A stretch of DNA of 53,017 bases from a virus: IMG/VR virus record IMGVR_UViG_3300020166_001603, positions 1-53,017 of that record. One strand, given 5' to 3'. Numbering within the stretch: the stretch's first letter is position 1; each line of letters begins with the position of its first letter. Both the position numbers and the translations under genes were made by a program. This document shows positions 2,729 through 48,079 of this stretch, piece after piece. The notes beneath the pieces were generated by a model. That model saw nothing but the letters and a program-made list of their open reading frames with translations. It was not told where the DNA came from and did not search any database.

Positions 2729-4360
2729 ATGAACATAAACGTAAAAAAACGAAACGGTAGACTTCAGCCTTTTTTGGTAGAAAAAATTAACGCAAATGTA
2801 GAAAGAGCATGTAAAGAAATCGAGGACACTTCCGTCAGTGAAGTTCTTCTTGATGCTCAATTGCAATTGTTCGACAAAATAACAACGAGTCAAATAGATA
2901 CAGCTCTAATTCTTTCTGCTAGAGAGAAAATAGAAAAAGAACCAAATTACAGCTTTGTTGCTGCGAGATTATTGCTAAACACTGTATATAAAGAAGTTTT
3001 CAAAGAGGGAGTTGATTCGGACACTTTTAAACTTCAATACAGAAAAAGCTTTATACAAAATATAAAAAAGCTAGTAAAACTAGAAAAGCTCAACCCAAAA
3101 ATGCTTGAATTCGATCTCGCAAAATTATCCGAAGCTTTAAGAATAAGGAGGGACGAGTCTTTTAAATACTTAGGTATTCAAATTCTAACCGATAGGTATT
3201 TCATTAGGCACGACGATAAAATCATGGAGGCTCCTCAATGTTTCTGGATGAGGGTTGCCATGGGGTTATCTCTAAACGAAGAAAACAAAGAAGAAAGTGC
3301 GATCAAAATATATGACATGTTTAGTCAGTTTTTGTATACTTCTTCTACCCCGACTCTTTTTAATAGCGGGACTACTCATTCTCAATTAAGCTCTTGCTAT
3401 CTCAACACTTTTGACGACAGTATCGACGGCATTTTTGATGGAGCGTGGCAAGAAGCTAGAAAATCTAAGTTTGCAGGCGGCTTGGGGTTTGATGTAACTC
3501 CGTTCAGGTCTTCAGGTTCTCACATTAAAGGTACAAACGGAATATCTGGAGGCCTAATACCTTGGCTTAAAATCTACAACGACCTTCTCGTTGCAGTAAA
3601 TCAAGGAGGAAAAAGGCCTGGAGCAGGGTGCGCCTATCTTGAACCTTGGCACTTAGATTACGAGGATTTCCTTAACTTAAGAAGGAACACTGGAGACGAT
3701 CGGCTGCGCTGCCACGACATGAACACTGCGTCTTGGATTCCTGATGAATTTATGAGAAGAGTAAAAAACGAAGATGTTTGGTACTTTTTTGATCCGTCCG
3801 AGGCCGATTTGCACGACTGCTTCGGAGCTGAATTTGACAAAAAGTACAACCAGCTATGTAATCAAGCAGAAGAAGGTTTAATAAAAAATTATAGAATAAC
3901 TACTGCAAAAGAACTTTGGAAAAAAATGCTTAAAGTCTTATTTGAAACCTCTCACCCATGGAACACATTTAAAGACCCCTGTAATATACGCTACACAAAT
4001 CAACACGAAGGAGTCGTTCACAGTAGCAACCTCTGTACGGAAATAACGCTCCACACAAAGGCCTCGAAGTACGACAAAGGCGAAAAGACAGAAATAGGAG
4101 AAACAGCGGTCTGCAATCTTGGATCAATCAATATCCTTAATCATATGAAAGAAGATGATACGATTGACTATGACAAGCTAAAGAATACAATTCACACTGC
4201 GATTAGAGCTTTAGACAACGTGATAGACTTAAACTTCTACCCAACAAAAGAAGCGAGCAATTCCAACTTGAAAAACAGGCCTATTGGGCTGGGAATGATG
4301 GCCTTGCACGATGTACTGCATAGAATGAATATAAACATTGATAGCGATGAAGCTGCTTAA
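2729..4360 (+). CDS. nrdA: Ribonucleotide reductase large subunit, N-terminal part up to an in-frame TAA
   Basis: 543 aa of a class I ribonucleoside-diphosphate reductase alpha chain (NDP to dNDP). An N-terminal ATP-cone (about 1-95, starting KKRNGRLQPF) predicts dATP feedback control. Catalytic parts seen: first redox cysteine in LSSCYLN, the radical site SSNLCTEI (Asn, Cys, Glu) and the partner cysteine in AVCNLGSINI. The frame then stops at TAA 4358-4360, after ...DSDEAA, and the rest of the enzyme continues in the same frame (see next entry). A CAA-to-TAA change at a likely glutamine would explain it. Alone this part lacks PTATIGY, the tyrosine pair and the C-terminal cysteines. Confidence 0.92.
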   Translation: MNINVKKRNGRLQPFLVEKINANVERACKEIEDTSVSEVLLDAQLQLFDKITTSQIDTALILSAREKIEKEPNYSFVAARLLLNTVYKEVFKEGVDSDTFKLQYRKSFIQNIKKLVKLEKLNPKMLEFDLAKLSEALRIRRDESFKYLGIQILTDRYFIRHDDKIMEAPQCFWMRVAMGLSLNEENKEESAIKIYDMFSQFLYTSSTPTLFNSGTTHSQLSSCYLNTFDDSIDGIFDGAWQEARKSKFAGGLGFDVTPFRSSGSHIKGTNGISGGLIPWLKIYNDLLVAVNQGGKRPGAGCAYLEPWHLDYEDFLNLRRNTGDDRLRCHDMNTASWIPDEFMRRVKNEDVWYFFDPSEADLHDCFGAEFDKKYNQLCNQAEEGLIKNYRITTAKELWKKMLKVLFETSHPWNTFKDPCNIRYTNQHEGVVHSSNLCTEITLHTKASKYDKGEKTEIGETAVCNLGSINILNHMKEDDTIDYDKLKNTIHTAIRALDNVIDLNFYPTKEASNSNLKNRPIGLGMMALHDVLHRMNINIDSDEAA

Positions 4361-4372
4361 TTCAATGACGAA

Positions 4373-5146
4373 TTGTTTGAATTCTATTCTTACCATTCTA
4401 TTTTTGCCAGCTCCCAACTCGCTAAAGAAAAAGGTTCCTACAAAACTTACAAAGGGTCACTGTGGAGCCAGAATAAACTGCCAATCGATTCTTATGCAGA
4501 TTTAATGAAATACAAGGGCAAGAAACCAAACCTCGAATCCTCTCTGGATTGGAGCGAGGTCAGGAACCACATCAGCGAGCACGGCATGAGAAATTCAAAT
4601 GTGATGGCTATTGCCCCTACGGCAACAATCGGCTATATAAACGGAGTCGAACAAAGCGTTGAGCCAAATTTCTCTGTATTATTTGTTTATGAAAATAAAA
4701 GCGGAAACTTTTACATCACTAATCAGCATTTTATAAATGATATGAAAAAAGAAGGGTTATGGAATTCTAATACCGCAAAACTAATTAAAGATGCCGACGG
4801 AGATCTTTCTGTATTAAATGGAGACATCCCTTCATGGATAAAGTTAAAATATAAAACGGCATTTGATAGAGATATGTTCAAACTGATAGACTGCAATGCA
4901 GTCAGGCAAAAATGGATCGATCAGGCCATAAGCTTTAATTTGTACAATAAAGAAACATCCTTGAAATATTTAAATGACGTATATATGTCTTGCTGGGAAG
5001 CTGGATTAAAAACGACATACTACCTAAGAAATAGGGCTGCATCCAAAGTTGAAAAATCAACATCAGAAGCAGATAAAGGGGAAGAAGCCTCGGCTTGCAG
5101 TATTGAAGCCGTGAAAAACGGAGGGTCTTGCGAGAGTTGTCAATAA
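4373..5146 (+). CDS. nrdA: Ribonucleotide reductase large subunit, C-terminal part
   Basis: This is the same frame as the preceding part, separated only by one TAA. It holds the phosphate-binding APTATIGYINGVEQ segment, the radical-transfer tyrosine pair in TTYYLRNR and the C-terminal redox tail CESCQ. Sequence homologous to the enzyme resumes immediately after the stop (FNDELFEF), so nothing is inserted or missing. TTG 4373 is the first listed start, but it has no Shine-Dalgarno and may not be used. Readthrough of TAA, reinitiation, a genuine two-piece enzyme or a sequencing or assembly error are all possible. Confidence 0.85.
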   Translation: MFEFYSYHSIFASSQLAKEKGSYKTYKGSLWSQNKLPIDSYADLMKYKGKKPNLESSLDWSEVRNHISEHGMRNSNVMAIAPTATIGYINGVEQSVEPNFSVLFVYENKSGNFYITNQHFINDMKKEGLWNSNTAKLIKDADGDLSVLNGDIPSWIKLKYKTAFDRDMFKLIDCNAVRQKWIDQAISFNLYNKETSLKYLNDVYMSCWEAGLKTTYYLRNRAASKVEKSTSEADKGEEASACSIEAVKNGGSCESCQ

Positions 5147-6243: not shown

Positions 6244-8388
6244 ATGAATAAGTTAATAATTATTACACTTTTATCAATACTGTCATCAATATCATCCTTC
6301 TCTTCAATTAATAGAGATTTTTACTCAAAGAATAAGCAAAAAATAAATGGATCAATAGTAAAATACTTCGACAATGGAGATGTCTTATTAGAAAGATCAA
6401 ATGACAAACAATTGTTCAGAATAAAACTAGATATATTCACAGAAGATGATCAAGCTTTCGTAAAAAACAATTTTCCACCCAATCATGAATCTCTACCCAC
6501 ATTCAAAAAACCTCTTTCAGATAAAGATTTAAAAATTAATTCAGAATTTATAGATAAAATTATCGAATCGAAACTCAGGTCTTATGGAGAAAGGCCTAAT
6601 AAAGAAATCTCTAACGAGACTTTTCTTCGAAGAGCCTACCTGAAGATTATTGGAAGGATACCCACCTTAAAAGAAGCTCAGGGTTTTCTTGGAAACAGGG
6701 ATAAAAAATCCAGAACTCAACTAATTGATAAACTTTTAAACTCGGAAGGGTACAATAAAAATTGGTATATCTATTGGGCCGATATACTCCGAGCGAAAAC
6801 TCGAGTAGGAAATCAAGGTTCAGATGGGTACCCGTTTATAAAATACATAAAAGATTCCATTTCCTCGAATAAGCCTTACGATATTTGGGTTAAGGAAATG
6901 CTTTCTTCTACAGGTCCTATGTGGGAAATGAATAACGGGGCTGTTGGCTATTTTTACCGCGACCAAGGCATGGGACTAGACAACATGTCGAATACGGTTC
7001 GTGTGTTTCTCGGTACAAGCTTGGAGTGCGCTCAATGCCACGATCACCCCTTCGACCGCTGGACACAAAAACAGTTCTACGAAATGGCTGCATTTACCAA
7101 TGGAGCAGAAAGAATGAAAAGAAAAGATGAAGAGCTTAATAAACTTTCAAAACTCATAAGAGCCTTACAGAAAGAAAACCCAGAAGACAGAAATAAAATT
7201 CGAAGAGCCTTTCTTCCAGTGCAAAACTTACTATCTCCAGGCTTAGACGACTTAGGAAAAGGTTCGATTTCTTTACCCAAGGATTACCAATACGACAATG
7301 CAAAACCTGGGCAAAAATTAAAAGCTAAAACTATTTTTGGTTTAGCGGTAGAATTAGATGAAAACCTCGAACAAAAAGGTTCCCGCACTTCTTATGCTAG
7401 TTGGTTAGCGTCTGCTACTAACCCTAGGTTTTCAACTGTAATAGCGAATCGGCTGTGGAAATCTGCTTTTGGATATGGTTTAATAGAGCCTGTGGATAAT
7501 ATATACGATGACACGCTACCGGTTCATCCAGAAATGATGCTTCATTTAGAAAAGTTGATGGTTGCCTTAGACTTTGACACAAAAGAATTTTTAAGAATTA
7601 TTTATAATACAAAAGCCTTCCAAAGAGAGGTTCCAATAGGAGATATAATCCCTAGAGACTCAAAAGATGACTCGCTACCCCCAGAGGTGAAGTGGGTAAT
7701 ATCTAAAACTCAAGGAAATAAACCTTACTTCTATCAAGGTCCCGTAATGCAAAGAATGAGCGCTGAGCAAATTTGGGATTCATTAGTGACTCTAAATTTT
7801 TACGATTTAGATAATAGAATTAATTCTCGAGCTCCCGAAGAAGGTTTTGAGGAATACCTTAGATACAAAGAGATGACGGCTGAAGAAATATTTCAAGAAA
7901 TCGCACCCAAACTTAAACAGCAAGAAGCTGTCTCTATGACCCCAATAAAAAAACAGGAGTCAAGCAGCAAGACGAGCCCTAAACGAAAAGGGTTTTTAAC
8001 TCGCGATATAAACTCCCTAAGAGCTTCTGAGGTTGGGGATCCTGCGCCCAGAGGGCATATGATTTTACAGTTCGGAGGGTCTCCTCGTGACCAAATCCAA
8101 GTATCTCATAAGGAAGCGGCAGTCAATCAAGTACTGGCTTTAATCAATGGCTATGTCGAAAAGAATATTATTAATAATAAAAAGTCCGCCACCCTCAGTG
8201 AAATCCTCGAAGCTTCAAGCATGGAGGAAAGGATTAATTTATCATTTCTTGCCATTTTACAAAGAAAACCTAACTCTAAAGAACTAAAAGATTTTAAAGA
8301 AACAATTAAAAAACTAAACACCAAGGATTACCATAAGGACATAGTTTGGGCTCTAATAAATAGTCACGAATTTATGTTTGTTAAATAA
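6244..8388 (+). CDS. DUF1549/DUF1553 (planctomycete PSD1-type) protein
   Basis: 714 aa. An N-terminal hydrophobic segment (1-20) looks like a signal or anchor. Residues about 30-75 resemble an SHD1-like domain (GDVLLERSNDKQ ... IFTEDDQAFV). DUF1549 follows (about 95-280; FLRRAYLKIIGRIPT, then CAQCHDHPFDRW, a CxxCH haem-type motif at about 261-265). DUF1553 fills the C-terminal half (YASWLASATNPRFSTVIANR, LRIIYNTKAFQRE, FLAILQRKPNSKEL). The usual separate N-terminal cytochrome domain of PSD1 proteins is absent. These families are abundant in Planctomycetota and Verrucomicrobiota and their biochemical role is unsettled. It is followed after one base by the DUF1501 gene, the normal partner. The product is probably exported. 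Confidence 0.9.
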   Translation: MNKLIIITLLSILSSISSFSSINRDFYSKNKQKINGSIVKYFDNGDVLLERSNDKQLFRIKLDIFTEDDQAFVKNNFPPNHESLPTFKKPLSDKDLKINSEFIDKIIESKLRSYGERPNKEISNETFLRRAYLKIIGRIPTLKEAQGFLGNRDKKSRTQLIDKLLNSEGYNKNWYIYWADILRAKTRVGNQGSDGYPFIKYIKDSISSNKPYDIWVKEMLSSTGPMWEMNNGAVGYFYRDQGMGLDNMSNTVRVFLGTSLECAQCHDHPFDRWTQKQFYEMAAFTNGAERMKRKDEELNKLSKLIRALQKENPEDRNKIRRAFLPVQNLLSPGLDDLGKGSISLPKDYQYDNAKPGQKLKAKTIFGLAVELDENLEQKGSRTSYASWLASATNPRFSTVIANRLWKSAFGYGLIEPVDNIYDDTLPVHPEMMLHLEKLMVALDFDTKEFLRIIYNTKAFQREVPIGDIIPRDSKDDSLPPEVKWVISKTQGNKPYFYQGPVMQRMSAEQIWDSLVTLNFYDLDNRINSRAPEEGFEEYLRYKEMTAEEIFQEIAPKLKQQEAVSMTPIKKQESSSKTSPKRKGFLTRDINSLRASEVGDPAPRGHMILQFGGSPRDQIQVSHKEAAVNQVLALINGYVEKNIINNKKSATLSEILEASSMEERINLSFLAILQRKPNSKELKDFKETIKKLNTKDYHKDIVWALINSHEFMFVK

Positions 8389-8389
8389 A

Positions 8390-9688
8390 ATGAAAACAAA
8401 TATCGAAAAATTAGACGAATTAAAAAGAAGAGAGTTTATTACAAGCGCGGCAAAGGCGTGCCTCGGAGTTGGGCTCCTACCAATGGCTGGTTCTTATATT
8501 CATAATAGCGCTGAAGCTTTTACTACTGGCCCTAGGCCCGCTACCGCCCGTTATGTTATTTACTTAAATATGAGCGGAGCGATGTCTCATCTCGATACAT
8601 TTGGAACAAACCCAGATGTGCCAGAGATACAAGGCCCAACAAAATCTATTCCGACTTCTGCTGACGGGGTTATTCTTTCTGAGAACCTTCCGTTAACCGC
8701 AAAACACATGCATAATGCTGCAATCATTCGAACAATGTCAACAAGTCAAGGGGCTCACGAACAAGCAAGTTATCTTATGCATACAAGCTATTTAAAGCGA
8801 GGTACCATTGCCCACCCTACATTCGGAAGCTGGGTATCAAAACTTTCGGGAGCAATCAATAGCACTATTCCATCCAATGTGCAAATCGGATCTAATCCAG
8901 CAGGAGCTGGATTTCTTGAGTCTAAATTTGGACCCCTCCCAATAGGCAACCCAAGCAGTGGCTTAGCAAACAGTAAGCTTGCAGACTATATTGATCAAAA
9001 TCGATTTGGAGGCCGTTTATCTATGGCTCAAAAAATGAACTCCTCTTACCTTAACCAATATGATCAGAAGCAGGTTCGAGCTTACTCTGATCTTTATAAA
9101 GACGCGGTCAAACTTATGCGAAGCGAGGACTTGAAAGCTTTTGATATAACTCTAGAGCCAGAGTCAATGCATGAACTTTACGGAAAAACCAATTTCGGGC
9201 AGGGCTGCTTGCTTGCTCGCCGCTTAATAGAAAATCAAGTTCGTTATGTGGAGGTTAGTCGAGGAGGGTGGGACACCCACGATAATAACTTTGAATCCGT
9301 TGCGGACAATTGCGCAGACATTGATAAAGCGTTAAGCGCTCTTTTGATTGATCTTGAAATGCGGGGACTGCTTAAGGAAACTATGGTTGTTTTGACTTCA
9401 GAATTTGGCAGAACCCCCAAGATAAACGAGCGTGACGGAAGAGATCATTGGCCGTATGGATTTACGGCTTTTCTTGCTGGCGGGGGAATTAAAGGGGGGA
9501 CAGTCTACGGAAAAATGGATGAGCTAGGCAGAAACCCAGCCGAGGGTAAATTTGTTGACCCGGCATCGTTAAATGCAACTATAGCATATGCCATGGGGCT
9601 ACCCTTAAATAAAATACAAACATCTCCCTCCGGCAGGCCATTTAAAGTAGCCCACGACGGAAAGCCCTTGTTTGATATACTTAATTAA
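8390..9688 (+). CDS. DUF1501 protein with twin-arginine-type signal
   Basis: 432 aa. ATG 8390 lies one base after the upstream stop. The N-terminus has KRREFITSAAKACLGVG, a twin-arginine plus hydrophobic stretch typical of Tat-exported DUF1501 proteins. Family landmarks: YVIYLNMSGAMSHLDTFG near the start, SRGGWDTHDNN and VLTSEFGRTPKINERDGRDH in the second half. DUF1501 proteins have an alkaline-phosphatase/sulfatase-like fold by family knowledge; substrate unknown. The pair with DUF1549/1553 is a standard bacterial operon, here inside a phage replication block and closed by a terminator. Confidence 0.92.
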   Translation: MKTNIEKLDELKRREFITSAAKACLGVGLLPMAGSYIHNSAEAFTTGPRPATARYVIYLNMSGAMSHLDTFGTNPDVPEIQGPTKSIPTSADGVILSENLPLTAKHMHNAAIIRTMSTSQGAHEQASYLMHTSYLKRGTIAHPTFGSWVSKLSGAINSTIPSNVQIGSNPAGAGFLESKFGPLPIGNPSSGLANSKLADYIDQNRFGGRLSMAQKMNSSYLNQYDQKQVRAYSDLYKDAVKLMRSEDLKAFDITLEPESMHELYGKTNFGQGCLLARRLIENQVRYVEVSRGGWDTHDNNFESVADNCADIDKALSALLIDLEMRGLLKETMVVLTSEFGRTPKINERDGRDHWPYGFTAFLAGGGIKGGTVYGKMDELGRNPAEGKFVDPASLNATIAYAMGLPLNKIQTSPSGRPFKVAHDGKPLFDILN

Positions 9689-9782: not shown

Positions 9783-10541
9783 ATGATACCATTATTTAAA
9801 AGCCACTTCTCAATTGGGAAAAGTATACTTACTCTAGCAAACCCAAGAGATCAAAAAGAAGGAAAAGCAGACAGTGTTTTCTCAATAGCTAAAAGCTGTA
9901 AATTAAAAGAGGTTGTGTTAGTGGAGGATTCGCTAACAGGATTTCTTCAGGCCAAAAAAAACGCAGACGACTTGAAGATTAAATTAATATTTGGGTTAAG
10001 GATCGACATGAGAACCGATGCAAAAATAAACCCAAAAGAAGAGCTCTTAACTTCTTCGCATAAAATAATTATTTTCGCAAAAAACTCAAAAGGGTGCGAG
10101 CGGTTAAATAAAATCTACAGTGAGGCTTTTTCGGATAATTATAACGCGGTAGACGAGAAATTACTAAAGAAATACTGGAGCAAGAAAGATCTAGCCTTAG
10201 CTATACCTTTTTACGACTCATTTATATATAACAACTTAATGAAATTCTCTAACTGCACTCCAAACTTTTCTCCTTATAGTCCGATCTTCTTTACTGAAGA
10301 TAACTCGCTACCGTTTGATAACTTTCTAAAGAGAAAGGTAGAAGATTACGCATTAAAAAATAAACTAGAAACACAAGAGACAAAAAGTATTTATTATAAA
10401 AATAAAAAAGATGCCACCGCATTACAAACCTACAAATGTATAACCGGAAGAACTTTCGGAAACAAAACCTTATCAAAACCAAACTTAGATCACTTCGGTA
10501 GCAATGAATTTTGCGTCGAAAGCTGGGAGGAAAAAAAATGA
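9783..10541 (+). CDS. DNA polymerase III alpha, PHP-domain part as a separate protein
   Basis: 252 aa matching in layout the N-terminal PHP domain of DnaE: FKSHFSIGKSILT (in place of LxxHS.YS), VVLVEDSLTGFLQAKKNADD (like the 'tDh.nl.g...f...a' segment), LIFGLRIDM (like 'pI.G.e') and a KIIIFAKNSKGCERLNKIYS segment. Several metal-binding His of active PHP domains appear to be missing, so it is probably structural rather than a nuclease. It overlaps the next gene by ATGA with GGGAGG upstream, which implies translational coupling. Together with the next two genes it makes up one split polymerase. Confidence 0.75.
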   Translation: MIPLFKSHFSIGKSILTLANPRDQKEGKADSVFSIAKSCKLKEVVLVEDSLTGFLQAKKNADDLKIKLIFGLRIDMRTDAKINPKEELLTSSHKIIIFAKNSKGCERLNKIYSEAFSDNYNAVDEKLLKKYWSKKDLALAIPFYDSFIYNNLMKFSNCTPNFSPYSPIFFTEDNSLPFDNFLKRKVEDYALKNKLETQETKSIYYKNKKDATALQTYKCITGRTFGNKTLSKPNLDHFGSNEFCVESWEEKK

Positions 10542-11182
10542 AAGAATCACTACTAAGGTTTAAGAAAAACCAAAAATACCTACTGTTTGATTACGAAACA
10601 TGCAACCTAAACTTAACCGCAAATAACAAACCCTGGCAACTAGCGTTCTTAGTGATTGAAGGCGGAGAAGTAAAAGAAAAGAAAGATTATTGGCTAAAAT
10701 GGAAAGAGCTTAATGTATCTCCGGAAGCTGCAAAAATCACAGGTTTTACTGAAGCTAAATACAAAAAGAAAGCTACCTGCCCAAAAGAAGCCTTAGATGA
10801 CTTTGAGCAATACCTATACGACGATTCTTATATCAAGGTTGGCCATAATTTACTAGGGTTCGATGTATATATGCACAACCTGCACAGAAAACTAATCAAC
10901 CCAAAAGCCGAATCAGACTATAGTTATACAGAAAATTTAGTAGACACCCTCTGCCTCGCGAAAGCTTTAAAGAAAAGGATAAAGCTAGATAAAGATGATG
11001 ATTTTTTAGCTTGGCAATACAGACTCAACAACTTAATAGAAAGAGGTCTTCGCTGCAACCTCAAACAATGCTGCAAGGATTTTGATGTCGAATTCAACGA
11101 ATCAAATCTACACGATGCCCTTTATGACATCAATATTAATTTCGAAGTTTTTAAAAAAATGATATGGGAAATAGAAATATGA
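10538..11182 (+). CDS. DnaQ-like DEDDh 3'-5' exonuclease (proofreading)
   Basis: 214 aa. Exo I: FDYETCNL (Asp, Glu). Exo II: VGHNLLGFDVYM (Asp). Exo III: LHDALYDI (His and Asp of the DEDDh type). It lies between the PHP and polymerase genes with 4-base ATGA overlaps on both sides, so the three are probably made in fixed proportion. This is the position of the exonuclease inserted in PolC, but here it is a separate chain. It likely proofreads the phage polymerase. GGGAGG precedes the ATG. Confidence 0.9.
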   Translation: MKESLLRFKKNQKYLLFDYETCNLNLTANNKPWQLAFLVIEGGEVKEKKDYWLKWKELNVSPEAAKITGFTEAKYKKKATCPKEALDDFEQYLYDDSYIKVGHNLLGFDVYMHNLHRKLINPKAESDYSYTENLVDTLCLAKALKKRIKLDKDDDFLAWQYRLNNLIERGLRCNLKQCCKDFDVEFNESNLHDALYDININFEVFKKMIWEIEI

Positions 11183-13737
11183 GCTTTACAGAACAGTTTA
11201 CAGATTATAAAGATTGCTGCCCACCGGGGGTGCGTTTGCCTGAGATTAAAATCGAGCAAAAATATTACGATATACTTAAATCAGATAACACAATATCTAA
11301 TTTTGAGTTCCTTAAAAAGCTTTGCCACAAAGGAGTTTATGACAAGGGGATAGATAAATTCAATAATAAGAAAGATTACTTCGATAGAGCGAAAGAAGAA
11401 TTAAAAATATTAAAAGAGTTAGGTTTTATTGATTATATATTATTAAATTGGGACATAATTAACTTTTGCCACGAAAAGGATATTCCTACTGGCCCAGGAA
11501 GAGGGTCTGCAGCAGGCTCTCTGGTATTGTATTTGATTGGGGTAACGAACGTCGACCCCGTTAAGTATAATTTATTTTTTGAAAGATTCGTATCTAAGAG
11601 TCGAGCAAAGAAGACAATTCAAGACGGAGTCACTTTTTTAGACGGAAGCCTTCTTGCTGATGTTGATAACGACATAGCCTACGAAAGAAGAATTGAAGTT
11701 ATAGAGTATATCGAAAAGAAGCACCCTGGGAGGACAGCTAAAATATTAACATTAAATACTTTAAGCGGAAAGCTATGCATTAAGGAGTGCGGCAAAATCG
11801 TAGGAGAGCTTTCTGAGCAGGAAGTTAATGAAGTCAGCCTCACAATACCAAAGAAATTTGGAGTAGTGCTTCCTATATCCGAAGCCTTACAAGAAAGCGA
11901 AAAATTCGGAGAATGGTCTGGAGAGAATTCAGAGGTATTCGAAATAGCTCTTAAGCTAGAAGGCTTAAATAAAAACACGGGAGTTCATCCTAGTGGGATT
12001 GCGATATCATTTGACGAAATAACCAAGACTTGCCCTACTCAGCGAACTAACGATGGCGCACTGGTAACGGGATACGATATGAATTGGGTGTCTGAGTTGA
12101 TGGTCAAGTTCGACATATTAGGACTTAGAACCTTGAGTGTTATATCTGATGTTTGTAAAGACTTAGGGATATCGAGTGAAGAAATCGACTTAAATGATTC
12201 GAACTTATTCGCTCCCCTCCAATCCTTAAAAACTCCACATGGTTTATTTCAATTAGAGTCTGATACTAATTTTAGGGTCTGCAAAAAGATCAAACCAGTA
12301 GACTTAGAGCAATTAAGTGCGGTTATAGCAATTGGAAGGCCGGGAGCTTTAGACTTTTTAGATAGTTATGTGACATATTCAGAAAGCGGAGAATCTCAAG
12401 TGATACACGACTTTTTTACTGATATTCTAGATTACACAGGAGGAATACCCTTGTACCAAGAACAGCTAATGCAGATGGCCGTAAAAATAGGTTTTACTCT
12501 CGACGAGGCGGAGCAATTGAGAAGGATAGTCGGCAAAAAAAAGGTAGACCAAATGCCTGCGTGGAAAGCTAAGATAGAAGAAAAAGTTGAAGAAAATGAC
12601 TTGCCTAGAGAAATTAGTCAGATACTATGGGGAGTTGCAGAGGACAGCGCGAACTACTCATTCAATAAGAGTCATAGTATATCTTACTCAGTGCTTTCGG
12701 CCTGGACTACTTACTTAAAATTCAAATACCCACAACAATTCTTCTTATCTTTATTAAAGATGACCAAGTATGAAACTTCCCCTCAAGAAGAAATATCCAA
12801 AATATCCAAAGAGCTGTCTCACTTTGGAATTCGATTACTATGTCCAGACTTAGCTAAATCTAAAATGGATTTTTCCATTGAAGGGAAAGATATAAGGTTT
12901 GGCTTAAATAGCATAAAGGGAGTTAGCGAGAAATCCCTAGAGTCACTTAGGGACTTTAGGTCAACAGACACTCCGACTAAGTACGATATTTTCTTAGCGG
13001 CAAAACAAGCCGGGCTAAACATAGGAATATTAAGCGCCCTAGCTCAAGCTGGAGCCATGCAAAGTAAAGGCGAAAACCGCTCACTAATGGCACTAGAAGC
13101 TCAAGCCTTCAATATATTAACTGATAGGGAGAAAAGAAACTTTATACTTCTTGGAGAAAAATACAACTACAAGCTTCTGAACTGCATAGCGGATGCAAAA
13201 AAGGGCCTACTAATCGCAGATGACGGCAAGCCATTAATGAAGGAGTCGAGATTCAACACCTTTAAGAAAAAGTACGATAGATATAAATCTATTTATGATA
13301 AAAACAAAAAGTACGAACAATTCGCAAATTGGTATTTTGAAACAGAGCTTTTGGGCTACAGTCACAGCTCAAATTTAAAGACTTGCTTTATGGATAGCTA
13401 CAACTCACTAAATGATTCTAGAGACTTGATGATGCTTGAGGCGGATGGAAAAGGTAAATTTATAGGAGTCGTAGAAGATTGTATAAAAAGAACGTCTAGA
13501 AACGGAAATAAGTATATGAAATTATCGATATCGGATGAATATGGAAGGTACGATGCGATGCTACTAAATTCAAGAAGGGGTAATTTTTACGACAAATACT
13601 TCAGCTCCGAGCAAAAAACTCCGCTAAAGAAAAATATCGTAGTCGCATACGGAAGGAAGGGAGAAGACATTGTTTTTCTTGACTCTTTATCCATAATGGA
13701 CGAGAAGATATATATGAAAATGTCTGAAATTAAGTAA
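11179..13737 (+). CDS. dnaE: DNA polymerase III alpha, polymerase part
   Basis: 852 aa. ATG 11179 overlaps the previous stop (ATGA); an earlier in-frame codon at 11164 would overlap more and is less likely. Palm motifs: TGPGRGSAAGSLVLYLIGVT, then LLADVDNDIAYERR with the catalytic DxD, and HPSGIAISFDE with the third acidic residue nearby. Thumb/fingers segments are VDLEQLSAVIAIGRPGALDF, LYQEQLMQMAVKIGF and NYSFNKSHSISYSVLSAWTT. An OB-fold is near the C-terminus (GVVEDCIKRTSRNGNKYMKL). It is the replicative polymerase. The N-terminal PHP and proofreading parts are encoded by the two preceding genes. Confidence 0.95.
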   Translation: MSFTEQFTDYKDCCPPGVRLPEIKIEQKYYDILKSDNTISNFEFLKKLCHKGVYDKGIDKFNNKKDYFDRAKEELKILKELGFIDYILLNWDIINFCHEKDIPTGPGRGSAAGSLVLYLIGVTNVDPVKYNLFFERFVSKSRAKKTIQDGVTFLDGSLLADVDNDIAYERRIEVIEYIEKKHPGRTAKILTLNTLSGKLCIKECGKIVGELSEQEVNEVSLTIPKKFGVVLPISEALQESEKFGEWSGENSEVFEIALKLEGLNKNTGVHPSGIAISFDEITKTCPTQRTNDGALVTGYDMNWVSELMVKFDILGLRTLSVISDVCKDLGISSEEIDLNDSNLFAPLQSLKTPHGLFQLESDTNFRVCKKIKPVDLEQLSAVIAIGRPGALDFLDSYVTYSESGESQVIHDFFTDILDYTGGIPLYQEQLMQMAVKIGFTLDEAEQLRRIVGKKKVDQMPAWKAKIEEKVEENDLPREISQILWGVAEDSANYSFNKSHSISYSVLSAWTTYLKFKYPQQFFLSLLKMTKYETSPQEEISKISKELSHFGIRLLCPDLAKSKMDFSIEGKDIRFGLNSIKGVSEKSLESLRDFRSTDTPTKYDIFLAAKQAGLNIGILSALAQAGAMQSKGENRSLMALEAQAFNILTDREKRNFILLGEKYNYKLLNCIADAKKGLLIADDGKPLMKESRFNTFKKKYDRYKSIYDKNKKYEQFANWYFETELLGYSHSSNLKTCFMDSYNSLNDSRDLMMLEADGKGKFIGVVEDCIKRTSRNGNKYMKLSISDEYGRYDAMLLNSRRGNFYDKYFSSEQKTPLKKNIVVAYGRKGEDIVFLDSLSIMDEKIYMKMSEIK

Positions 13738-41045: not shown

Positions 41046-41288
41046 TTAGTTGCGATAATGAGATGAGTCTTGCGATTCGGTTAGAGTTTCATAAGCGTGT
41101 GCTTTTTGTGCAATAGCTTTTAATGCTCCACCAATAACATTCAACATTGAAAGCTGATCGTTGTCAAGCATATTCTTGTCGGTCATTGGTTCGATCATGT
41201 TGTCGTGAATGAATGCCATAACTAATTCGTTTGCTTCTAGCGAGTCAACATCCTGAACTTGCAAGTGGTTTGGGTCATTAAGATACAT
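41046..41288 (-). CDS. 80-aa hypothetical helical protein
   Basis: Contains LEANELVMAFIHDNMIEPMT and LSMLNVIGGALKAIAQKAHA. Its start overlaps the 41-aa gene by 11 bases. No family recognised. Confidence 0.65.
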   Translation of the reverse strand: MYLNDPNHLQVQDVDSLEANELVMAFIHDNMIEPMTDKNMLDNDQLSMLNVIGGALKAIAQKAHAYETLTESQDSSHYRN

Positions 41289-41403
41289 AGTTTAATTTTG
41301 TTTTGTGTTTTAGTTTCCTATCAAGAATTTTGTTTTTCATCTTGAAAGGTCGAGCCTTAGTGAAAAGGATTTGATGTCTGAGTTTTATCTTTTTCGCCTT
41401 CAT
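41278..41403 (-). CDS. 41-aa very basic protein, operon leader
   Basis: MKAKKIKLRHQILFTKARPF then KMKNKILDRKLKHKTKLNYV. About a third of residues are Lys/Arg. Support comes from the promoter: ATG lies exactly seven bases after a -10 box as in six other operons. It might bind nucleic acid. Confidence 0.6.
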   Translation of the reverse strand: MKAKKIKLRHQILFTKARPFKMKNKILDRKLKHKTKLNYVS

Positions 41404-41410
41404 AAGTATT

Positions 41411-41438
41411 AGTATGACAGATTTTTTTGTGGTGTCAA
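41411..41438 (-). promoter_or_regulatory. Right-arm leaderless promoter
   Basis: Minus strand: TTGACA, 16 bases, CATACT preceded by CTGT (extended -10), 7 bases to ATG 41403. Confidence 0.8.
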
Positions 41439-41531
41439 GTCTTTTTATGTACCTCTTTTTCTCTCCCCGAAGGGTTGTAGGCGTGTGCTGACGCCTCGTT
41501 GTTCAATGCTTTCGCATCTACAAAAAGAGCA

Positions 41532-41646
41532 GTCCCCTGTGGGCTTTGAACCCACATCTTCAATCGTTACCAATGATCAATTGGTTGCAGACTTAACTAG
41601 TATACTGCGGAATGATTGATGCTCTACCAACTTGAGCTAAGAGGAC
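41532..41646 (-). tRNA. tRNA-like gene with a 43-base insertion in the anticodon loop
   Basis: Acceptor GTCCTCT / AGGGGAC (seven pairs, one G-T), D arm GCTC-AAGTTGGTA-GAGC, T arm GTGGG-TTCAAAG-CCCAC and anticodon stem TCAAT / ATTGA are all present, with a 4-base variable loop AGAT. Between the anticodon stem halves are 50 bases (41565-41614) instead of seven. The extra part can form ACCAAT-TGATC-ATTGGT and GCAG...CTGC hairpins. CCA is not encoded and the base after the acceptor is U. The anticodon cannot be fixed. It has its own promoter 36 bases upstream. Confidence 0.6.
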
Positions 41647-41681
41647 ATAATGATCTGAACTATTAAAGAACTATAAATATA

Positions 41682-41709
41682 AGTATGTCAGAATCTCGAA
41701 CTAAGTCAA
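41682..41709 (-). promoter_or_regulatory. Right-arm promoter for the tRNA-like gene
   Basis: Minus strand: TTGACT, 16 bases, CATACT, preceded by CTGA. Predicted start about 41675; no ATG follows at seven bases, in keeping with an RNA product. Confidence 0.75.
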
Positions 41710-41734
41710 CCCCTAAATGAAAAAAAATAAAAAT

Positions 41735-41820
41735 AGTTGTAAGCTCTTGATGCTCAATGACTTGCGCGAAACCGCCCAGGGCTTTTTGCCCTAACTAGTT
41801 CATAACCAACAGTTTATGAC
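41735..41820. repeat. Boundary repeat, copy B
   Basis: Core GAAACCGCCCAGGGCTTTTT flanked by TTGTAAGCTCTTGATGCTC... and CTAACTAGTTCATAACCAAC arms. It lies between the end of one operon (41897) and the tRNA-like promoter. Confidence 0.8.
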
Positions 41821-41896
41821 ATCTGCATAAATACATAATAAAATATATGCACTAAAGGTTAATAAAATTGATGTAAATAATAATACTTTAATCATA

Positions 41897-42064
41897 TCAG
41901 TACCCTAACCATTCTAACACTTTTTGTGCATTATACTCTTCTTTGTCACCCATGTCTAAAATGAATTGGTGAATATCTTGGCAACCATGCTTTGAGAGTT
42001 CTTCAAACGCTCTTGCTTGGCTAATCATTAAATCTTCGGCTGATTCGTAATATGCTTCACTCAT
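41897..42064 (-). CDS. 55-aa hypothetical acidic protein
   Basis: MSEAYYESAEDLMISQARAF then ELSKHGCQDIHQFILDMGDK, helical. ATGA overlap with the Gp88-like gene shows coupling. Not recognised. Confidence 0.65.
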   Translation of the reverse strand: MSEAYYESAEDLMISQARAFEELSKHGCQDIHQFILDMGDKEEYNAQKVLEWLGY

Positions 42065-42804
42065 GAGTCTATCCCTTCTACTACAAATCCTGTTGCGTCT
42101 TTCTTTGCCATACCTTTCTCGATCAAGCCAACGACCACACCTTTCTTGTCAAGAAAACGCAAGTCAGTTTCATCACCATTGACGACCTCAAAACCTTTCC
42201 ATGTTTTGGGTAATTGATTGCGAAATACAACGGCTACATTACCACCCATTAAAAGAACCATTTCGCATTTCTTGTCGTTATTCTCTGAACGACTAAAAGT
42301 CAAATGATAATTGGAAGGAAATTTTTCTTCATTCTTTAGGAAAGGCTTGCCGAGAAAGCTTGACATCCTTTTAAATGATTTGGTATAATCATAGAATTGA
42401 GTTTCGGGAAACTTGTCAAAAATTGTTTTTGGCTCGCCTTCGTTGAAGAAAACAGATTCCCACATGATGTCGCTTGTAAGATTAGGGCGAAATACAGCCT
42501 TCATACTTTTCTTTTGAGCCGACTTGATTGAAGAGCTAATTTCCTTGGATAGTTTAGCAAGGAAATCAAATTGCTTCTCAAAGAACAATTTTGTTTTGTT
42601 GATGCGTGAATCTTGAACAGATCCCATTTGACCACGACCTGCCGTATTCAAACAAGACATTGTGCAACCTTTAGAACGCCATTGGCAAGTTTCGTAGCCT
42701 GAAAGATTTGCTGGGGCAAGGTGAATGCCTTTTGTGATGTAACCTAATTTCTCGCCTTTGAGAATCTTTTGGTTACCTGATGTGAGAAGTGTTGTTTTAA
42801 TCAT
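42061..42804 (-). CDS. Gp88-like conserved phage protein
   Basis: 247 aa. LAPANLSGYETCQWRSKGCT followed by MSCLNTAGRG matches the cysteine motif of the mycobacteriophage Gp88-like family (...G.p.C...s.gC...CL...GrG), which may bind a metal or Fe-S centre. The rest has FRPNLTSDIMWESVFFNEGE and LTFSRSENN. Function unknown. Second gene of the 42984 operon. Confidence 0.8.
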   Translation of the reverse strand: MIKTTLLTSGNQKILKGEKLGYITKGIHLAPANLSGYETCQWRSKGCTMSCLNTAGRGQMGSVQDSRINKTKLFFEKQFDFLAKLSKEISSSIKSAQKKSMKAVFRPNLTSDIMWESVFFNEGEPKTIFDKFPETQFYDYTKSFKRMSSFLGKPFLKNEEKFPSNYHLTFSRSENNDKKCEMVLLMGGNVAVVFRNQLPKTWKGFEVVNGDETDLRFLDKKGVVVGLIEKGMAKKDATGFVVEGIDS

Positions 42805-47785: not shown

Positions 47786-48079
47786 TTAACATGAATAATA
47801 ATAAATAAAATGGTGTGGGGAAGGATTACTGTATACCTTCGACTTTTCGGCGTGAACATCAGTTCATAGAGTACCTACTTCGCACCACAAACGAGACTTG
47901 GAATTGTCTCTAGCTCATCCGATTGGACTCTGCTAATCTACCACAGAAAGTTTGCGTACCTTAGCTCGCTCACGACAAGCTTGCTCAGTCACCCACAGGA
48001 GAAGTATATCTACCTCTCCAAAGTTTTTAAAATGTTAAAGATCGATTATTTATTTTGATTAAGTTTGTTTCTTAATTAT
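47750..48079 (-). ncRNA. Candidate structured non-coding RNA, about 330 bases
   Basis: It has a full-consensus promoter (48086-48114) and a strong terminator but no ORF. The RNA is GC-richer than its surroundings and full of hairpins: GGAGA...TCTCC near the 5' end, GCTTG-TCGTGAG-CGAGC, TAGC-aga-GTCC-AATC-GGAT-ga-GCTA, GAGAC-AATTCCAA-GTCTC, TGAAC-TGAT-GTTCA and GAAGG...CCTTC. TGTGGG near 47994-47999 pairs with CCCACA near 47814-47819, closing a domain of about 185 bases that ends CCCAC-ACCA, like the acceptor end of a tRNA or tmRNA. It does not look like RNase P RNA or a normal tRNA. No known RNA family recognised. Confidence 0.65.

Follow-up and report, generated by a model that had tools for sequence, protein, structure and literature searches.

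Genomic setting and transcription of the RNA

The window analysed here covers positions 1 to 53,017 of IMG/VR virus record IMGVR_UViG_3300020166_001603, and all coordinates are positions in it. Genes for ribonucleotide reductase, DNA polymerase, terminase and PhoH identified the virus as a tailed phage. A tRNA-like RNA is encoded inside a long intergenic region (41289-42060), between a GP88-family gene and a further gene on the same strand. The features surrounding the RNA are as follows.

42061-42804, minus strand: GP88-family gene (phrog_1617, Pfam GP88), the upstream neighbour, which was used as synteny anchor
41682-41709, minus strand: putative sigma-70-like promoter of the RNA (TTGACT, 16 nt, CATACT, with TG before the −10 element)
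41411-41438, minus strand: second promoter-like site (TTGACA, 16 nt, CATACT)
41046-41288, same strand as the RNA: next gene downstream

A preliminary description, drawn up from the letters of the window alone, had credited the tRNA-like gene with a promoter of its own, and a sigma-70-like consensus match was indeed found at 41709-41682 (−), from which transcription of the RNA is expected to start near 41675. Seven such consensus matches occur in the region versus 2.8 expected by shuffling, and an element of similar kind, TTGAC..TGTCATAAT, precedes the RNA in several relatives. No terminator-like site was found at the RNA locus. Because the second promoter-like site starts just past the RNA, the RNA and the next gene are apparently transcribed as separate units. 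This arrangement bears on the possibility that the tRNA-like element and the 3′ junction form a cis-acting leader that controls how the next gene (41046-41288 or further) is expressed or processed, which would agree with the placement of the RNA ahead of a same-strand gene, within a long intergenic region. However, that gene has its own promoter-like site past the RNA, and the RNA is present in phages both with and without tRNA arrays nearby; we regard the leader reading as improbable.

Some other features of the window were recorded. A manA RNA motif (RF01745, 71 bits) lies at 47810-48019 (−), and an Rfam scan of the window returned nothing besides this motif and a tRNA-Met. Adjacent DUF1549/DUF1553 and DUF1501 genes are located at 6244-9688 (+); such a pair is characteristic of Planctomycetes, and its presence in a phage was not expected. 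The ribonucleotide reductase large subunit and the DNA polymerase are each apparently split across separate reading frames (2729-5146 (+) and 9783-13737 (+)), possibly through an insertion, an intein or a frameshift.

The tRNA-like domain and its relatives

The tRNA-like domain (41532-41646, minus strand) has the acceptor, D and T arms of a decoding tRNA, as indicated by ARAGORN and by the pairing in 14 relatives, together with a decorated anticodon arm. Its parts, all on the minus strand, are as follows.

41640-41646: 5′ strand of the acceptor stem (7 bp including one G-U; pairs with 41532-41538; both-sided changes in five of seven pairs)
41621-41637: D arm (4 bp, loop with GG; both-sided changes in three of four pairs)
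41560-41619: helix at the anticodon-stem position, enclosing the insert (41614-41619 with 41560-41565, 6 bp; both-sided changes in five of six pairs)
41587-41608: hairpin A (GCAG..CTGC), with a covarying stem and the palindrome ACUAGU in its loop (41596-41601)
41569-41585: hairpin B (ACCAAT-TGATC-ATTGGT), with a covarying stem, a 7-nt loop UUGAUCA and the palindrome UGAUCA (41574-41579)
41539-41555: T arm (5 bp, GTGGG TTCAAAG CCCAC; both-sided changes in four of five pairs)
41532-41538: 3′ strand of the acceptor stem, with CCA not encoded

The intact stems around a 50-base "anticodon loop" folding into two hairpins, and the U (41531) standing after the acceptor where a discriminator base is expected, were thus present as described beforehand. 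The assigned extent of 41532-41646 held for the tRNA-like part and failed as an end of the feature, since a second structured domain adjoins it (41453-41529). When introns were allowed, which was among the checks proposed in the preliminary description, ARAGORN gave 41532-41646 a score of 108.9 as a tRNA containing an insert of 41 nt, whereas its default mode made no call there and the Rfam tRNA model did not report the segment at its gathering score. The results of running the intron mode on 40 second-order Markov-simulated windows (2.1 Mb) revealed no comparable match.

The GP88-family gene served as anchor for retrieving 50 related viral loci. In L141, L144, L149 and L158, the same RNA follows the GP88 gene at a distance of approximately 330-500 nt, and a motif scan added members L177, L178, L181 and L184, while a scan by the sequence of hairpin B returned nothing new. 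The carriers are many uncultured, mostly marine, phages. In a 14-member alignment, 94.2% of the cells form standard pairs (78.3% when shuffled), compensatory changes on both sides occur in 21 of 32 pairs, and double-change cells number 77, as against 22.9 in shuffled alignments and 4-10 with the partners slid. The same insertion, for which a search in relatives had been suggested, consequently recurs in synteny with covarying stems rather than as random unfolded insertions. Hairpin loops A and B (0.89 identical) are conserved like the T loop (0.90), and the helix at the anticodon position is identical at only 0.52; the insert, whose loops exceed most of the tRNA stems in conservation, is therefore a constrained part of the molecule. 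A decayed tRNA or a chance fold might explain the missing anticodon, the unusual discriminator and the failure of the default tRNA search. However, the compensatory changes and syntenic conservation, the motifs common to many distinct phages and the lack of any chance match in 2.1 Mb ruled out this option, which can practically be dismissed.

A tRNA with a novel small intron in its anticodon loop, removed by self-splicing or by protein, would fit the location of the insert and the ARAGORN model. On the other side, the anticodons inferred by ARAGORN upon removal of the insert differ between close relatives (tcc, tgc, tat, tac and ttt, corresponding to Gly, Ala, Ile, Val and Lys) and mostly lack U33, the members differ in having U, G or A after the acceptor, and CCA is encoded only in L221 and L253. 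The variation of the anticodon and of the post-acceptor base among close relatives argues against a spliced decoding tRNA. Furthermore, the insert loops are conserved without a conserved product, a 3′ domain is attached, and the insert (41-43 nt) is far below the size of group I introns (P/Q/R/S core, about 200 nt or more) and has no Rfam intron match. The small-intron option of the preliminary description was thus abandoned as very improbable. A mini-tmRNA reading from an AGUC-UGCAA string in the insert was also rejected, as the motif is not kept in relatives and no tmRNA model matched.

Two further groups of tRNA-like RNAs were observed during this comparison. In L121, L122, L148, L133, L162, L140, L146, L150, L168 and L169, which are close relatives of the phage studied here, the RNA is replaced at this locus by another tRNA-like RNA, lying approximately 370-680 nt past the GP88 gene on its downstream side. 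The replacement has a hairpin with the loop CUGCAA at the D-loop position and an anticodon-like hairpin with UUGCAG, and these two kissing loops are perfectly complementary. In addition, phage tRNA bodies with 29-57-nt inserts and no 3′ domain were found in L005, L010, L019, L023, L036, L045, L054, L055, L064, L089, L105 and L114. In many of them, a hairpin and then a UUAC(U/A)GCAA-like string stand ahead of an anticodon arm of normal appearance, and they may represent genuine small introns or a further class of RNA.

Palindromic hairpin loops and the 3′ domain

The loops of the two hairpins change in a coordinated way among the relatives. In the recognisable clades, the loop of hairpin A follows the motif AU-NCNNGN-U with ACUAGU, UCUAGA, ACAUGU or CCUAGG as its six central bases, and these are self-complementary wherever the motif is recognisable, the single exception being a chance match in L209. 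L194 and L231, otherwise nearly alike, are separated by a compensatory UCUAGA/ACUAGU swap. In hairpin B, positions 3-6 of the loop form a palindromic tetramer (GAUC, AGCU, GUAC, GGCC or CGCG, and CUAG in L192), and GAUC alone is kept in L178/L181. Such a tetramer at positions 3-6 was found in 10 of 40 distinct 7-nt loops versus 6.6% expected (P = 2e-4), as compared with 2-4 of the 40 at other offsets, and six-base palindromes are enriched overall (47 versus 28.4 ± 5.2 in shuffles); in these tests, related sequences count as independent beyond the clustering applied. L201 and L203 have other loops (UUCGCUA), and the loops of L200 and L242 show no clear palindrome.

Since a palindrome in one hairpin loop cannot pair with itself intramolecularly, symmetric kissing between copies of the RNA best accounts for the palindromic loops, and would lead to dimers or larger assemblies. 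This interpretation follows the precedent of OLE and GOLLD, in which adjacent covarying palindromes were taken as intermolecular pairing and cryo-EM confirmed it (PMC12286853). Alternatively, the palindromic loops could bind a symmetric protein.

The second, 3′ domain begins 2 nt after the acceptor stem. Its elements, all on the minus strand, are as follows.

41453-41529: 3′ domain, in which the outer helix and the first hairpin covary
41522-41529 with 41453-41460: outer helix
41505-41518: GNRA hairpin, after GUA
41496-41504: GAACAACGA
41480-41495: hairpin GGCGU..ACGCC
41474-41479: UACAAC, followed by a CC-UUCG-GG hairpin and GGAGAG

The members share a general plan, in which the outer helix encloses GUA, a hairpin with a GNRA-type loop, GAACAACGA, a GGCG-hairpin-CGCC element, UACAAC, a short hairpin and GGAGAG. 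Scans for the exact core returned 71 stretches of viral contigs, including L233 and L237, which look like coding sequence, and seven stretches of MAG contigs, including L249 and L251, which are coding sequence by context; as the core served as the search key, its invariance is partly ascertained. When the position following GAACAACGA and another preceding TACAAC were each relaxed by a single base in the core pattern, only unrelated coding sequence was obtained besides the exact-core members, and the core-bearing members returned by the relaxed scans include L305, L354, L356, L358 and L359. In 33 distinct members, chosen for a continuous outer helix, the pairs of this helix occur as T-A, A-T, C-G and G-C. 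The first hairpin is much enlarged in L158, L184 and L196, so insertions are tolerated there. The 208-nt stretch 41439-41646, which spans both domains, has a folding energy of −61.5 kcal/mol (z = −3.18 versus shuffled sequence).

A tRNA body precedes the 3′ domain in approximately 46 of 52 distinct cases. Its inserts range from 48 to more than 100 nt and belong to families that differ widely between phages, and L217/L246 and L252 have a plain tRNA-like body without insert, indicating that kissing is not universal in the family. That very different phages have kept the 3′ core suggests either a partner shared among many hosts or an RNA fold that makes high demands.

Proposed assembly and comparison with known RNAs

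On balance, we consider it moderately probable that the locus encodes a new class of phage non-coding RNA, namely an independently transcribed, self-associating tRNA mimic. The transcript would comprise approximately 195 nt plus a short leader and would be neither spliced nor used for decoding. Its 5′ domain would imitate a tRNA through the acceptor stem, D arm and T arm, presumably forming the L-shaped elbow, with the anticodon arm rebuilt as an extra helix bearing the two hairpins, and the 3′ domain would form a near-invariant multi-helix junction right after the acceptor stem. Through symmetric kissing of their palindromic loops, copies would associate into dimers or larger assemblies. With less assurance, the assembly might display its tRNA elbows, along with the fixed 3′ domain, to a shared partner, such as the ribosome or tRNA-handling enzymes, or might act as a scaffold of RNA, as has been suggested for GOLLD and ROOL. 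We tentatively put forward, as a possibility that remains in some doubt, a more specific version in which the tRNA-shaped block assembles by kissing of the anticodon-like 7-nt loop and the second loop into an RNA-only multimer, and the junction domain docks onto a widely conserved host component, for example the ribosome.

The main rival to the self-associating mimic is a monomeric decoy, an option already raised in the preliminary description, in which the tRNA imitation would occupy host tRNA-cutting defence nucleases, RNase P/Z, tRNA-modifying enzymes or the ribosome, with the hairpins as bait loops. The intact acceptor/D/T architecture without CCA or a fixed anticodon suits such a role, and so do the wide differences of the insert families between phages, as in an arms race, the grouping of two such RNAs with a message-less tmRNA in L201, and the different tRNA-like RNA at the same spot in other relatives. 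However, the loops are highly conserved within the clade, unlike variable bait, and a decoy alone leaves the palindrome switching and the near-invariant 3′ domain unexplained. We judge the decoy reading rather unlikely.

The tmRNA of the L201 cluster is one of two message-less "micro-tmRNAs" with encoded CCA, at L201:5423-5486 (−), 64 nt, and L156:10640-10712 (−), 73 nt. They pass the Rfam tmRNA threshold (59.1 and 56.5 bits, respectively), although the mRNA-like and pseudoknot region is wholly missing, and are possible trans-translation decoys in marine phages. The L201 cluster fits the theme of mimicry.

As to novelty, Rfam 15 contained no family matching the RNA (41200-42200, E ≤ 10), nor was the 3′ domain matched by Rfam in 20 other loci. 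Blastn against 50,697 phage records gave no match for the tRNA-like part and none for L198, a match confined to the normal-looking tRNA part for L217, and short chance pieces only for the 3′ domain at E ≤ 10. A full-text literature search, with most subscription journals outside its scope and an unseen description thus possible, returned no description of the RNA. In the absence of an Rfam family, a blastn match or a paper, we rate the RNA as categorically new as a class; its nearest kind is the GOLLD/ROOL group, none of whose defining sequence features it shows. Ornate phage RNAs of unexplained function are few, and this one brings in a further class that is small, well defined and widespread. 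From the coordinated palindrome changes, self-assembly between RNA copies follows as a specific prediction open to testing, and the mimicry of tRNA suggests contact with the machinery of translation or of tRNA surveillance in the course of infection.

Several known systems share single traits with the RNA. The insertion in the anticodon loop recalls tRNA introns, both the archaeal kind with a bulge-helix-bulge (BHB) at its splice sites and the bacterial and phage group I kind, the host here being assumed to be bacterial, but a conserved spliced anticodon and an intron-model match are lacking here, and conserved insert loops and a 3′ domain are present. Like tmRNA (RF00023 and RF04321), of which phage copies exist, the RNA combines an acceptor/T module with a large insert in place of the anticodon arm; unlike tmRNA, it has a canonical D arm and neither a tag reading frame nor pseudoknots. 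The two tmRNA models gave no match in 41200-42200 (cmscan), and matched elsewhere in L202, L201 and L156. In L202, a permuted tmRNA (4747-4901 (−), RF04321, 60.2 bits) was observed within a 25-tRNA array, approximately 250 bases from a family member. The YrlA group of bacterial Y RNAs, partners of Ro60 in bacteria and phages, likewise contains a tRNA-like module within a non-coding RNA. In YrlA, this module is joined through the Y stem for Ro60, whereas the phage RNA has an open acceptor end, an insert in the anticodon arm and an adjoining 3′ junction. No Ro60/TROVE gene was found among the window proteins scanned with Pfam, which cover the small ORFs in part, in a window that may be a fragment.

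The closest resemblance is to GOLLD and ROOL, ornate phage and prophage RNAs that form cages by cryo-EM (PMC12286853). Their covariance models were not matched, a cmscan of 41200-42200 at E ≤ 10 giving a spurious snoRNA match only. All are phage-encoded structured RNAs of open function, sometimes with or near tRNAs, and GOLLD also joins a variable part to a strongly conserved 3′ part. The switching palindromic loops, read in GOLLD and ROOL as symmetric intermolecular kissing, are suggestive of the same here. In contrast to those RNAs, for which the oligomer was demonstrated, self-association is deduced here from the loops, and the tRNA fold is built into the RNA itself as a structural element. 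With approximately 195 nt, as against 800 or more for many GOLLD RNAs, the RNA lends itself far better than GOLLD or ROOL to synthesis, probing and structure determination.
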